DNA of 64,000 bases. Origin: Paenibacillus sp. JZ16 (lineage in GTDB: Bacteria > Bacillota > Bacilli > Paenibacillales > Paenibacillaceae). Positions 54 to 26,460 of the stretch are shown here, one piece after another. The position numbers and the translations under genes are program-made. The notes under the pieces are model-generated. The model ran no database searches and was not told the origin of the DNA. It was given only the letters and a program-made list of their open reading frames with translations. Numbering within the stretch: the stretch's first letter is position 1; each line of letters starts with the position of its first letter. The DNA lies in NCBI RefSeq assembly GCF_015326965.1, contig NZ_CP017659.1:6523001-6587000 (forward strand), written 5' to 3'.

Positions 54-3000
54 ATGAAACCGATCTTGTTGAAATTATCCGGACTGCAGAGTTATCGAGA
101 ACCGCAGGAGATTGATTTTGAGACGTTGTGCGAAACCGGACTCTTCGGTATTTTCGGACCGACGGGAAGCGGGAAATCCACACTGCTGGATGCTATTACT
201 TTAGCCATGTACGGAAAGGTGGAGCGTGCGGTTAACGGAACCCAGGGCATCATGAACCATTCGGAGGACAGCTTGTCCGTCTCTTTTACGTTTGAGTTGT
301 CCTCCGCTGCCGGACTGGAGCGATACCGGGTAGAGCGCCGATTCAAACGGGTCAATGAGCTCTCCATCAGCAATACAGTGAGTCGGTTTATCCAAGTTAC
401 CCCCGATGGGGACCAGGTGATGGCGGATAAACTGGCCGAAGTCACCCGCTGCGTAGAAGAGAAAATCGGACTTAAAATGGATGATTTCACCCGTGCGGTC
501 GTTCTTCCTCAAGGTAAGTTTGCTGAATTCCTCTCCCTGAAGGGGAGTGAGCGTCGGCAGATGCTTCAGCGGCTGTTTCATTTGGAACGGTACGGAGACC
601 AGCTTGCGATCAAGCTCAGCCGCCGCGTGAAGGATACAGAGGGTTCGCTGAAATCCGTCGAAGCTGAACAGCAAGGGCTGGGCAGTGCAGGCAAAGAAGC
701 TCTGGCGGAAGCGACTACGGTGCTGGAAGAAGCCAAGAAACACGCGGCGTCATCCCGGAATCTTCTCCAGGCCGCCATCGAAGCCCATGAAGCTATGGGG
801 AAAATCCGTGAGTTGGATATGGAAAAACGGCGGCTCCAAGGGAAGCTGGATGAACTTGCCCTTCATGAGGAAGAGATGAAGCAGTTGGAACGACGGCTTG
901 AGCTGACAGGGGCGGCAGCCGCAGTTCTTCCTGCGCTGGAAGCTTGGCGCGAATCCGGCAAGGTCTGGGATCATCGGAGGCAGATTGCCGAAGGACTCAC
1001 CGCGCAAGCCGCATCCGCTCAGAACGCGGCCGAGCAAGCCGTCAAGGCGGATGAAGCTGCCCAGGCAGCTCTTCGGGCCGAGGAGCCGAAGCTGGTGCTT
1101 CGGGAGCAGCAGCTGGAGCAGGCTGTTTTATTGCAGCGGGAACGTGATGGATTACGCGAAGAACTGATTAGGCTGGATGCACAGCGAGTGGACGCACGCA
1201 AAGAGCTTGATGGAGTAACTGCCCAACTGCAGAAGGAGCAGGTACTGCTCGAACGGGGGCAAAAGCGGCAGGAGGAGCTGCAGACCAAGCTGAAAGGGCT
1301 TGAGATCCGCTCTGGTGAGCGTCAAGCGCTTCATATGGCGATGCAGAAGGTCCAAGCCCTTGAGTCGGCCGGCAGACGGAAGCAAAAGGCTGAGCTCGAG
1401 TTAAAATCGCAGGAGAGCAAGCTGAAGGAGCAAGAAGCAAGCCTTATTGCCCTGCAGAAGCAGGAGCAAGAATTGCAGCGGCACTACATACAGCTCTCCG
1501 TGCAAGCTGACAGCTTGCAGCGTGATGCAGCCGAAGCCTCGTCGTTTGCCGACCGGATGGCGGCCGCGGCAGCTCAGGTAAACCAGGCGATGAGCGACTC
1601 GCTTCGCAACAAGCAGCTTCATGCGCTGTCCCTTTCGCTCGCCGCCGAGCTTCGGGAAGGAGCTCCTTGTCCGGTTTGCGGAAGTGAACATCATCCTCAT
1701 CCTGCTGCCTCATCAGGGCACCCTGAAGATCATCTTGATGAGGCCATGAATCAGCTGGCACAGATCACTCATCAGATCCAGGAGGCCAGATTAACCCTGC
1801 GGGGGCAGCTTAACGAAGCGGAGGCGCTGGCAAGCCAAACGCGTTCGCAGATTGAGCCGTATGCAGATGACGAGCTGCTTGCCGTCAAACTAGCCGGGCA
1901 GGAGCAACAAGGATGGATGGAGGCAGCAGTGTCAACGATACCAGCCGCTGATCAACCGTACGATGTAGAAAAGCTGGCTTCAGACACGGCATGGCTCATA
2001 AAAGCAGCCGCAACCCAGGCTGCAGCCATCGGGCAATGCCGTACGGAAGCCTCCAAGGTACAGCAGAGCCTCTTCACATGCCAGCAGGAGCTTATGAAAC
2101 AGAGCGCTGCGCTTGAGAATGGTCAAATGACTTGGAACCAACTTCGGGATCAGCTGGCAGGACTGGAAGCTGAAGCTGAAGGCATTTTAACCTCCTGGCA
2201 GGAAGTCAAGCCGGATTTTTCTCTGGAGGAGGCAGCCGGCCGTTTTCAGCTCATGCAAGAGAAGGATGCGGAAGCCGAGTCCATAAAGGAAGGGCTGGAG
2301 CGCAGCGTTCCATTTATTGAGGAGAAGAAGCAGGCCGTCCTTCGCTTGGAGCAGCAGCTTCGTGAGCTGGAGAAGCTGCTGATTCAATGGGATGCTCAGC
2401 GTGAGGGAAAGGCGGATGGACTGAAGGATAAGGAAGAGCGTCTCCGGGCATGGATCGGCGACCGGTCGGCTGAAGAGCTGCTCGGAGAATGCCGGTCCAG
2501 AATGACCCTGCTGAAGGAAGCTGCTGAACAAGCCAGAAGCGAGTGCAGGAAGGCAGAAGAAAAGGCTCAGCATGCAGCCAAGGAAGCGGCTCTTGCAGAA
2601 CAGGCTGAGAGGTCTGCGCAGGAGCAGCACCAAGCTGCCAAGCTTGCCTGGGAGAACCAGCTGGCAGCCTCACCGTTCGCTACGGAGCTTGCCGTCCTGG
2701 AAGCCTGTCTAAGTGCGGAAGAAAGTGAACGATGCGCACAGTTAGTGAAAGCCCATCGGGAAGGACAGCGGGAATGGACGCTGAGGCTTCGCGACGTCGA
2801 GCAGAAGCTTGGTGCGAGCCCTTTTCATGAAGAGGAGTGGCAACGGTGCACAGCCGAGCTTCAGGCGGCCCGTACAGCCGATGAGGAGGCCCTTCAGGCG
2901 AGAGCCCGAGCCGAGCGTGACTTGGAGGACCTGAACAAACGTCACATCCGGTTTATGGAATTGGAAGAGCAGCGTCTTAACCTTCAACGAGAGAGCGAGC

Positions 3001-3503
3001 GCTTGTCCAAATTGCAGTCCTGCTTGCGTGGAAACGCATTTGTTGAATATATTGCGGAAGAACAGCTGATGCAGGTGAGTCAGTCGGCTTCCCAGCGTCT
3101 TCGTTATTTAACCAAGCAGCGCTATTCGCTTGAGGTGGATTCCGGTGGAGGCTTCGTCATTCGGGACGATGCCAACGGCGGCGTCCGGCGTCCGGTATCC
3201 ACGTTATCGGGCGGCGAGACATTTCTGACCTCATTGGCCTTGGCTTTGGCACTCTCGGCACAGATTCAGCTGCGCGGGCAATATCCGCTGCAGTTCTTTT
3301 TCCTCGACGAAGGGTTCGGCACGCTGGATCCGGAGCTGCTGGAAACGGTCATCACCGCGCTTGAGCGGCTCCATACCGATAAGCTGACCGTTGGCATCAT
3401 CAGTCATGTGCCCGAGCTTCGGGCGCGTCTGCCGCGGAAGCTGGTCGTACGGCCGGCGGAGCAAGCGGGAGCCGGATCGCAGCTTGCGATCGAATCGATG
3501 TAG
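54..3503 (+). CDS. sbcC: SbcC, ATPase subunit of the SbcCD DNA repair nuclease
   Basis: This 1149-residue protein is a Rad50-type SMC-like ATPase that, with SbcD, opens hairpins and trims protein-blocked DNA ends. It has an N-terminal Walker A (GPTGSGKS, about residues 35-42), long Ala/Glu/Gln/Leu-rich coiled coils, a central zinc hook (CPVC, about residue 539), and a C-terminal ABC signature (LSGGETF, about 1051) followed by Walker B (FFFLDEGFGTLDPE). Length and domain order are normal for the family. The ATG abuts the stop of the upstream sbcD remnant, so the two are co-translated. No terminator is obvious right after the stop; the next element is a Crp/Fnr-like box. Confidence 0.97.
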   Translation: MKPILLKLSGLQSYREPQEIDFETLCETGLFGIFGPTGSGKSTLLDAITLAMYGKVERAVNGTQGIMNHSEDSLSVSFTFELSSAAGLERYRVERRFKRVNELSISNTVSRFIQVTPDGDQVMADKLAEVTRCVEEKIGLKMDDFTRAVVLPQGKFAEFLSLKGSERRQMLQRLFHLERYGDQLAIKLSRRVKDTEGSLKSVEAEQQGLGSAGKEALAEATTVLEEAKKHAASSRNLLQAAIEAHEAMGKIRELDMEKRRLQGKLDELALHEEEMKQLERRLELTGAAAAVLPALEAWRESGKVWDHRRQIAEGLTAQAASAQNAAEQAVKADEAAQAALRAEEPKLVLREQQLEQAVLLQRERDGLREELIRLDAQRVDARKELDGVTAQLQKEQVLLERGQKRQEELQTKLKGLEIRSGERQALHMAMQKVQALESAGRRKQKAELELKSQESKLKEQEASLIALQKQEQELQRHYIQLSVQADSLQRDAAEASSFADRMAAAAAQVNQAMSDSLRNKQLHALSLSLAAELREGAPCPVCGSEHHPHPAASSGHPEDHLDEAMNQLAQITHQIQEARLTLRGQLNEAEALASQTRSQIEPYADDELLAVKLAGQEQQGWMEAAVSTIPAADQPYDVEKLASDTAWLIKAAATQAAAIGQCRTEASKVQQSLFTCQQELMKQSAALENGQMTWNQLRDQLAGLEAEAEGILTSWQEVKPDFSLEEAAGRFQLMQEKDAEAESIKEGLERSVPFIEEKKQAVLRLEQQLRELEKLLIQWDAQREGKADGLKDKEERLRAWIGDRSAEELLGECRSRMTLLKEAAEQARSECRKAEEKAQHAAKEAALAEQAERSAQEQHQAAKLAWENQLAASPFATELAVLEACLSAEESERCAQLVKAHREGQREWTLRLRDVEQKLGASPFHEEEWQRCTAELQAARTADEEALQARARAERDLEDLNKRHIRFMELEEQRLNLQRESERLSKLQSCLRGNAFVEYIAEEQLMQVSQSASQRLRYLTKQRYSLEVDSGGGFVIRDDANGGVRRPVSTLSGGETFLTSLALALALSAQIQLRGQYPLQFFFLDEGFGTLDPELLETVITALERLHTDKLTVGIISHVPELRARLPRKLVVRPAEQAGAGSQLAIESM

Positions 3504-3512
3504 CACGGTTGA

Positions 3513-3555
3513 TGTGATCTACATCACGGAAACAGCTACATGGCGCTGTTATAGT
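3513..3555 (+). promoter_or_regulatory. Crp/Fnr-type box with class II promoter spacing
   Basis: TGTGA-N6-TCACG (3513-3528) is one base from the Crp/Fnr palindrome TGTGA-N6-TCACA. A TATAGT -10 hexamer lies at 3550-3555 with no good -35. With a start near 3562 the palindrome centre (3520.5) falls at -41.5, the usual class II activator position. Which Crp/Fnr-family member binds cannot be told from the sequence. Confidence 0.5.
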
Positions 3556-3561
3556 ACAGAT

Positions 3562-3690
3562 AAGCCGACATAGTTAAGAAGCACCGGGCAGGCGCTTGAT
3601 CATGAGAGATTCCAATCTTTTCTCTTGCTCTCGTGATGAAGCGCCTCCTTACTGGACAGCTGCGTTCCAGTGGTGCTTCTCTTTTTTTGT
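3562..3690 (+). ncRNA. Candidate structured small RNA with intrinsic terminator
   Basis: A three-way junction can be drawn by hand. P1 pairs 3577-3585 with 3672-3680 (AGAAGCACC/GGTGCTTCT). P2 is a 19-bp stem, 3590-3608 with 3628-3646, with one G-G mismatch and one G-U pair. P3 pairs 3651-3656 with 3666-3671 (ACTGGA/TCCAGT). Seven T residues (3682-3688) follow P1, as in an intrinsic terminator. It sits between sbcC and the HIT gene and ends before the HIT ribosome binding site, so it looks like a separate transcript of about 125 nt. I do not recognise it as a known riboswitch, T-box or 6S RNA. An ATG at 3596 would read through the structure into the HIT gene, but that extension resembles no HIT N-terminus. 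Confidence 0.5.
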
Positions 3691-3775
3691 GTATGCCTTA
3701 ATGTCATCTCATTGGACGCACTGCCTAATTTCTTATATGATAAAAGCATGTAAACGTATGAAAGGGGTAACCGTG

Positions 3776-4135
3776 ATGGATTGTCTTTTTTGTAAAATCG
3801 TAGAAGGGGAGCTTCCTTCCACGAAAGTACTCGAGAATGATAAGGTGCTTGTATTTCAAAACATTAACCCGGAGGCGCCGGTTCATGTTCTGATTATTCC
3901 CAAGAAGCATATCGCATCCATGAACGATATTCAGGATGAAGATTTGCTGCTGATTGGCGAGATGCACAAAGCGGCGAAAGAAGCCGCTGCCAAGCTGGGC
4001 ATTGCGGAAAGCGGTTATCGGTTAATTAACAACTGCGGACCTGATGGGGAACAATCGGTGTTTCATGTGCACTATCATCTGATGGGCGGTCGCCGTTTAG
4101 GCGCTTTAACAGGCATTTCGCCCGCGCATACATAA
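3776..4135 (+). CDS. HIT family (histidine triad) nucleotide-binding protein
   Basis: This 119-residue protein has the family N-terminus (MDCLFCKIVEGELPS) and the active-site triad HVHYH followed by LMGGR near the C-terminus. HIT/HINT proteins are small dimeric purine nucleoside phosphoramidase or AMP-lysine hydrolases; the cellular substrate here is unknown. ATG 3776 is chosen because AAAGGGG (3761-3767) lies at the right distance and homologues begin here. A longer in-frame reading from 3596 runs through an RNA-like structure and is rejected. The gene stands alone and is followed by a GC-rich hairpin. Confidence 0.93.
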   Translation: MDCLFCKIVEGELPSTKVLENDKVLVFQNINPEAPVHVLIIPKKHIASMNDIQDEDLLLIGEMHKAAKEAAAKLGIAESGYRLINNCGPDGEQSVFHVHYHLMGGRRLGALTGISPAHT

Positions 4136-4950: not shown

Positions 4951-4962
4951 CAACATAAGTGA

Positions 4963-5000
4963 AACACCCCTTGTTTTCTCAAGGGGTGTTTTTTCTTTTT
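4963..5000 (+). terminator. Intrinsic terminator of rpsU-yqeY
   Basis: AACACCCCTTG (4963-4973) pairs perfectly with CAAGGGGTGTT (4980-4990) around a six-base loop, and a T-rich tract follows. Confidence 0.92.
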
Positions 5001-26013: not shown

Positions 26014-26419
26014 GGAAAGTTTGACAGACAATCGCTGGCGGCTCTAAGCCGCGAGAGGAAAGTCCGGGCTCCATAGGGCAGGGTGCTGGATAACGTCCAG
26101 TCAGCGCGAGTTGAAGGATAGTGCCACAGAAATGGACCGCCGATGGCCGCCTTAGGGTGGCACAGGCAAGGATGGAACCGAGGTGTAAGAGACCCCGAGG
26201 AACGCTGGTGACTTCGTTCCTGGTAAACCCCACCTGGAGCAAGACCTAATGGGACGCAGTCTCTTTCGAGGAGACAGCCTTAGCCCGAGGCGCGTCCGGG
26301 TTGGTCGCTTGAGTCGATTAGTAATGATCGGCCTAGATAGATGATTGTCGCTCATGGTGGCAGGGTAGTTCCCGTTATGACCACGAAGAGCACAGAACCC
26401 GGCTTACGGAAAGCTTTCC
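26014..26419 (+). ncRNA. rnpB: RNase P RNA, class A architecture
   Basis: The conserved 5' core GAGGAAAGTCCGGGCTCCAT (26053-26072) continues into AGGGCAGGGTGCTGG, and the conserved 3' elements include AGATGAAT-like AGATAGATGATTG and ACAGAACCCGGCTTACGG. P1 pairs GGAAAGTTT (26014-26022) with AAGCTTTCC (26411-26419). The order of these elements, including GCCGATGGCC and GGTAAACCCCACC, follows the E. coli-type (class A) RNA, not the class B form of B. subtilis. It is the catalytic RNA that trims tRNA 5' ends. Confidence 0.95.
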
Positions 26420-26460
26420 CAACTGAACAACATATTGCTTTACTAATACCGCTATGGTAC

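Follow-up and report, generated by a model that had tools for sequence, protein, structure and literature searches.

The window, by which we mean the whole stretch of 64000 nucleotides of Paenibacillus sp. JZ16 that was analysed, lies on a contig of 7.42 Mb and carries an intergenic stretch (3504–3690) between the stop codon of sbcC (54–3503) and a HIT gene (3776–4135). Both genes are on the forward strand and serve as context only, the HIT gene lying outside the RNA unit described here and encoding a protein identical with the HIT protein of Paenibacillus lautus NBRC 15380. The features of the intergenic stretch, all on the forward strand, begin with a Crp/Fnr-type (Fnr) box, TGTGA-N6-TCACG (TGTGATCTACATCACG, 3513–3528, centre 3520.5), followed by a promoter spacer (3529–3546), an extended −10 element in which TGT precedes TATAGT (3547–3555, TATAGT itself at 3550–3555) and the bases ACAG (3556–3559). 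A start at A3562 places the centre of the box at −41.5, and from this base a small RNA of 127 nt (3562–3688) is predicted. Its leader AAGCCGACAU (3562–3571) is unpaired and is a candidate seed according to the fold, the alignment and the per-base conservation. The leader is followed by the 5′ strand of an outer stem, P1 (3577–3585), a hairpin P2 (3586–3649, with 3586–3608 pairing with 3628–3649 around a loop at 3609–3627), a hairpin P3 (3651–3671), the 3′ strand of P1, which is the terminator stem (3672–3680), and a terminator run of seven T residues (3682–3688), read directly in the sequence, which ends 87 bases before the HIT start codon. P1 was assigned from the fold and from counts of pair changes, P2 from the fold with covariation in other clades, and P3 from the fold. 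The initial annotation had described a TGTGA-N6-TCACG box centred 41.5 bases before a start predicted from a separate TATAGT, and seven T residues behind a three-way junction, and all of these elements were found in place, with TGT in front of the −10 in addition; its P1 of 9 bp also stands, whereas P2 and P3, given there as 19 and 6 bp, came to 21 bp (with two mismatched or bulged positions) and 7 bp. The RNA gene is present in a single copy in its own genome, and we accordingly rejected a repeated element as an explanation of the locus.

Homologous loci were collected in two ways. Searching 100 genomes of the genus at the DNA level, with a query containing the box, supplied 74 of the loci used; in most of the matches the box, the −10 and the 5′ end survive and the middle does not. 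Another 53 loci, 40 of them chosen among the listed places, came from a covariance model built on the RNA only, with no promoter bases in it. The inspected set is therefore 127 loci from 127 genomes, out of 220 genomes in which the RNA was detected, the other 93 not having been inspected singly. Upstream of the RNA, sbcC was matched in 123 of the 127 loci, and the four without a match in the stretch fetched all belong to genus g3.

On its own, the box is weak evidence and is not striking against chance, as the window has a single exact copy, and six matches with at most one mismatch compared with 3.4 expected. A distance of −41.5 in one sequence likewise depends on which start is picked, and the start was taken from the −10. 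Conservation lifts the box above chance, because GTGA and TCAC lie exactly at −41.5 in all 127 of the inspected loci, with 75 different N6 spacers between them; for this count, which is free of any filter on the position of the box, the anchors were TGTTAT..TACAG and the CCGA.A that follows it, and the start was again set by the −10. Loss of the box in close relatives had been named as a finding that would speak against the initial annotation; the box is kept throughout this set. For a per-base table we kept 140 loci by requiring the box at −41.5, which gave 115 distinct sequences. In these, each of the eight GTGA/TCAC bases carries 2 bits of information, compared with 0.04–0.5 for the N6 spacer, 0.02–0.3 for the ten bases upstream of the box and 0.6 for base −49, the first of TGTGA. 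Such fixed half-sites around a variable spacer are the mark of a protein-binding site that is under selection at a constant position.

The promoter has the layout of the class II Crp/Fnr kind, with the box at −41.5, a nearly invariant −10 element (TGTTATANT) and a CAGATA-like −35 to −30 region that holds no consensus −35. TGTTAT (−15 to −10), T−7 and ACAG (−6 to −3) are each present in 115/115 distinct sequences, and within the spacer GA.ACA (−33 to −28) and CA (−23 and −22) are nearly invariant among the same sequences. Together with CTGT, the ACAG gives CTGT-TATAGT-ACAG in the window, and its counterpart CTGT-TATAAT-ACAG is an inverted repeat. To our knowledge, neither GA.ACA nor ACAG is needed by any Fnr promoter, and the near-invariance of promoter bases outside the box and the −10 suggests a second regulator that may read them. 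By eye, a palindrome, CTGTATC-T-GATACAG, was also seen 3′ of the RNA terminator at five loci (L150, L151, L152, L153 and L154), and its half GATACAG is the consensus of the RNA promoter from −33 to −27.

The RNA itself is predicted to be structured. The fold of 3562–3692 has an energy of −56.4 kcal/mol (z −5.8), and none of 200 shuffled sequences was as good; single folds of 16 RNAs all gave z values between −1.8 and −10, the weakest being L026 (−1.8) and L033 (−2.7). An outer stem P1 of 7–13 pairs against the U-run could be folded in all 127 RNAs, where up to three T-runs per locus were tried and the first with at least six outer pairs was taken, every locus having one. A three-way junction was found in 119 RNAs and a four-way junction in eight, with RNA lengths of 109–160 nt; seven of the four-way junctions, which have an extra hairpin, are in genus g9 (L185, L186, L190, L191, L196, L197 and L198, 135–160 nt) and one is in g17. 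The initial annotation had proposed to look for compensatory changes in homologous regions, and these exceed what shuffling produces. When 35 RNAs were aligned by sequence only, 98.2% of cells were paired, compared with 41–56% when the 3′ partners were slid, and changes on both sides were seen in seven pairs and 32 cells, compared with shuffle means of 2.9 and 7.4. For P1, in 43 RNAs that include its own clade, four pairs had changes on both sides compared with a shuffled mean of 1.0, including an A-U to G-C change in 21 sequences; further pair types in P1 of these 43 RNAs were not above shuffles, 117 of 500 of which reached the observed number. From these counts we left out model alignment A3 (142 matches, 96 loci), which contains opposite-strand matches, and in alignment A2 the row of L115 is without its first 10 nt.

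What the aligned clades have in common is the single-stranded 5′ end, P1 and the U-run. The sequence of P2 and P3 is replaced in some clades, the JZ16 clade among them, in which P2 still folds, and a part of P2, CGGCGGACGUAUG, is kept in most alignment rows and lost in that clade. Averaged over the seed, the probability of being unpaired has a median of 0.99 and reaches 0.8 or more in 112 of the 127 RNAs, falling below 0.5 in one (L244). In 24 of the 127 loci, the seed is one base nearer to the promoter or one to two bases further from it, and we therefore regard it as a unit that is kept in its own right. Of the features expected of a trans-acting, base-pairing sRNA, its own promoter, a terminator and a conserved exposed seed are present here at the level of sequence.

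The distribution of the RNA was examined in 394 genomes of the family. The promoter-seed pattern TGTTAT-NN-TACAG-N1-5-CCGACA was found in 210 of these, with one match each and in 6 of 19 genera, and reversed-pattern controls gave no matches in the same genomes; the RNA covariance model found 202, and the union of model and pattern came to 220 by hand tally. By genus, the RNA was detected in 90/100 genomes of g1, 36/40 of g3, 67/75 of g5, 18/19 of g9, 8/16 of g17 and 1/22 of g15. P. polymyxa is among the carriers (locus L050). In a sample of 392 genomes from the order, 175 were positive with the model, from 5 of 49 genera, and every listed match is in the Paenibacillaceae. Both model searches were run under stricter filters, with which weak relatives may be missed. 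The interpretation given in the initial annotation, which spoke of a new Paenibacillus regulator, is supported, with the refinement that the RNA extends beyond one genus.

We then considered the regulator. Perfect TGTGA-N6-TCACA sites number 14 in the JZ16 genome (L269–L282), compared with two for a reversed control pattern. When ten proteins behind such boxes were scanned, moaA, hcp, hmp and nirB scored above the NCBIfam cut-off, and an NADH-oxidase-like protein, cytochrome bd subunit I (cydA), acetaldehyde/alcohol dehydrogenase (adhE) and formate acetyltransferase (pflB) scored below it, three of these last four being cut short by the end of the locus; for the other two no NCBIfam name was obtained. 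One box faces an AraC-type and an HMA-type frame, as read by eye, and fnr, divergent from the dehydrogenase, follows a site of a fifth kind. Around three of the 14 boxes, neither strand has an ORF within 320 bases. The 14 boxes outline an anaerobic regulon of moaA, cydA, hcp, hmp, nirB, adhE, pflB, fnr and others. Of the 12 orientations examined, 6 have their best −10-like hexamer starting 29.5 bases away from the box centre, the same distance as at the RNA gene. Two proteins of the same genome (L250 and L251) end in ICHCEDCPREICRM and ICHCELCPNEICRI respectively, a C-terminal cysteine cluster CHCExCPxEICR which we take to be that of the Bacillus-type Fnr, and both carry the helix RESVNR; two Fnr paralogues with such a cluster in one genome are located at G000:C1:4892444 and G000:C1:6857335. 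Because the same box precedes anaerobic genes and the genome encodes two Fnr-type proteins, oxygen is the likely signal for the RNA. The initial annotation had left the choice between oxygen and carbon, and of the two oxygen acting through Fnr fits better, carbon less well, as it is anaerobic genes that share the box. A close Fnr homologue (E≤1e-105) was present in 217 of the 220 RNA-positive genomes by hand tally, the exceptions being G044 (72% complete), G257 and G322, and in 26 of the 174 genomes without detected RNA; this co-occurrence is confounded by kinship and is supportive only. In Paenibacillus sp. WLY78, nitrogen-fixing conditions raise the level of the fnr transcript 6.84-fold (PMC4774088).

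Taken together, the locus is probably the gene of an Fnr-activated, self-terminated sRNA that is controlled by oxygen and acts through its unpaired 5′ end AAGCCGACAU. Sequence comparison shows the box with its spacing, the promoter, the structure, a terminator-like end, the conservation, the single copy and the anaerobic genes that share the box; Fnr as the activator, anaerobic expression, pairing of the 5′ end with targets, and which targets these are and in which sense they are regulated, are inferred. Under anoxia, the iron–sulphur regulator Fnr would bind TGTGA-N6-TCAC, centred at −41.5, and would act as a class II activator that brings RNA polymerase to an extended −10 promoter that has no consensus −35. 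The transcript of approximately 127 nt would begin at A3562, with AAGCCGACAU single-stranded and the remainder folded into the three-way junction, and P1 with the seven U residues would double as the terminator. The free 5′ end would then pair with mRNAs and, under anoxia, reduce their expression (an increase being less likely), and the junction would protect the RNA. Other sRNAs are known to use seeds at a free 5′ end for antisense action.

Two alternatives concern how such an RNA is switched on and how it works. It is unlikely that the RNA binds a protein, as a sponge or scaffold, rather than pairing with mRNA through its 5′ end, although this would agree with the retention of CGGCGGACGUAUG in most rows and with our target searches, which used exact 7- or 10-mers only. 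In six genomes, the 10-mer complementary to the seed, ATGTCGGCTT, gave 117 matches, six of which are the RNA genes, compared with 103 for a reversed-pattern control, so that there was no enrichment; none was seen either for AGGAG-N1-20-TGTCGGC, in which the complement of the seed lies near a Shine–Dalgarno sequence (151 compared with 170 for the control, in the same number of genomes). No start-region site recurred between genomes among 70 of the 117 loci. By eye, the few start-region matches comprise an ABC permease, a mobA-like gene and others, and one match common to G000 and G081 lies in a histidine-kinase coding motif. Against a protein-binding role, however, what all aligned clades share besides P1 and the U-run is precisely the single-stranded 5′ end, and the conserved P2 sequence is lost in the JZ16 clade. 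The RNA could also be switched on by another activator of the Crp/Fnr family, for example of CRP-, ArcR- or haem-type, with a signal other than oxygen as such, since the box alone cannot tell Crp-like proteins apart and two further Crp-like proteins (L249 and L256) have recognition helices of the RE-V-R type by eye. We consider this quite unlikely, given that the perfect boxes of the genome mark anaerobic genes, fnr included, and that all but three of the RNA-positive genomes hold a close Fnr.

The other two alternatives deny that the locus is an independent RNA gene. The RNA and HIT are on the same strand, and the 87 bases from T-run to start codon would suit a cis-acting leader or attenuator of HIT, but HIT is preceded by its own promoter-like site (3713–3741), the neighbour that is kept is sbcC upstream, and, in the loci in which both could be located, the distance from the RNA locus to HIT ranges from approximately 200 to 3899 bases with no loss of box, RNA or terminator. 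On this variable distance we rejected a HIT leader, which we regard as very unlikely. That the RNA encodes a small protein is scarcely credible: an ATG is often found in P2 and some rows can be read by eye as an open frame of approximately 19 codons, but the lengths between the arms of P2 are split 33, 19 and 16 over the three frames (68 of the 127 loci, those with matchable arms), and none of the 127 RNAs, of which 11 were counted short, has a Shine–Dalgarno-preceded ORF of at least eight codons ending inside it. A coding RNA was rejected on these two grounds.

An Fnr-activated sRNA thus remains our preferred reading, and we compared it with known systems. Rfam, searched over the whole window at the gathering score, gave only RNase P (class A, 26016–26421) and no family at the RNA site; at a relaxed threshold, 3400–3800 gave three unrelated weak matches (E 0.22–2.4). 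The Rfam library includes a model of FnrS, and Fnr-activated small RNAs are known from Proteobacteria. FnrS of E. coli and Salmonella is a small RNA under FNR control with anaerobic expression (PMC8139620), as is predicted here, and represses more than 30 mRNAs according to the same source. In contrast with this likeness, the Paenibacillus RNA comes from another phylum and gave no match to FnrS, the comparison having been made by covariance model; on the best reading it is analogous in design to enterobacterial FnrS and unrelated to it. Likewise, NarS, PcrZ and other anaerobic sRNAs of Proteobacteria are linked to FNR-type regulators, but NarS is cut from the 3′ UTR of narK, and the control of PcrZ by FnrL may be indirect (PMC8139620); none of these sRNAs had an Rfam match at the site.

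Among Firmicutes, RoxS/RsaE of Bacillus and Staphylococcus is similar in being a redox-linked sRNA. RoxS is under the control of ResDE and NO (PMC4409812, PMC8139620) and has conserved C-rich regions (PMC4409812). The RsaE model (RF01820), run under stricter Infernal filters, matched none of 61 genomes of the genus, which is the type genus of its family, that of JZ16 included, whereas the Bacillus subtilis positive control was matched; as RoxS gave no match in these 61 genomes, the Paenibacillus RNA may fill its place. Genes of the Bacillus-type Fnr regulon are narK, fnr and nar. The box is the same, as is its spacing to the −10-like hexamer at six sites of the JZ16 genome, but protein genes lie behind it there and a predicted RNA gene lies behind it here. 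A table of nitrate-respiration sRNAs in the covered part of one review has FnrS and NarS under FNR in enterobacteria, with RoxS under ResDE as its sole Firmicute entry (PMC8139620). We found no prior description of this RNA in the literature covered, which includes parts of PMC5670726, PMC4774088, PMC8139620 and PMC4409812. PMC5670726 reports 27 intergenic small RNAs in P. riograndensis, and our RNA may already have been detected there as an unnamed transcript.

If the preferred reading is true, the wiring of Fnr to an sRNA would have arisen separately in the Paenibacillaceae (220 of the 394 sampled genomes), and the anaerobic response of this group, which has nitrogen fixers among its members (PMC4774088), would gain a further layer. 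A bolder version, which we put forward tentatively and think possible rather than probable, is that the RNA might be a Firmicute equivalent of FnrS that evolved independently and replaces RoxS in the Paenibacillaceae, with a 10 nt 5′-terminal seed mounted on a terminator-closed multiway junction, and with double gating by Fnr and by a second regulator that would read GA.ACA and CTGT-TATAAT-ACAG. The seed, the promoter and the segment to delete are delimited well enough to be tested directly. Elsewhere in the window, a strong terminator-like hairpin lies at 4961–4992 and was reported on both strands.
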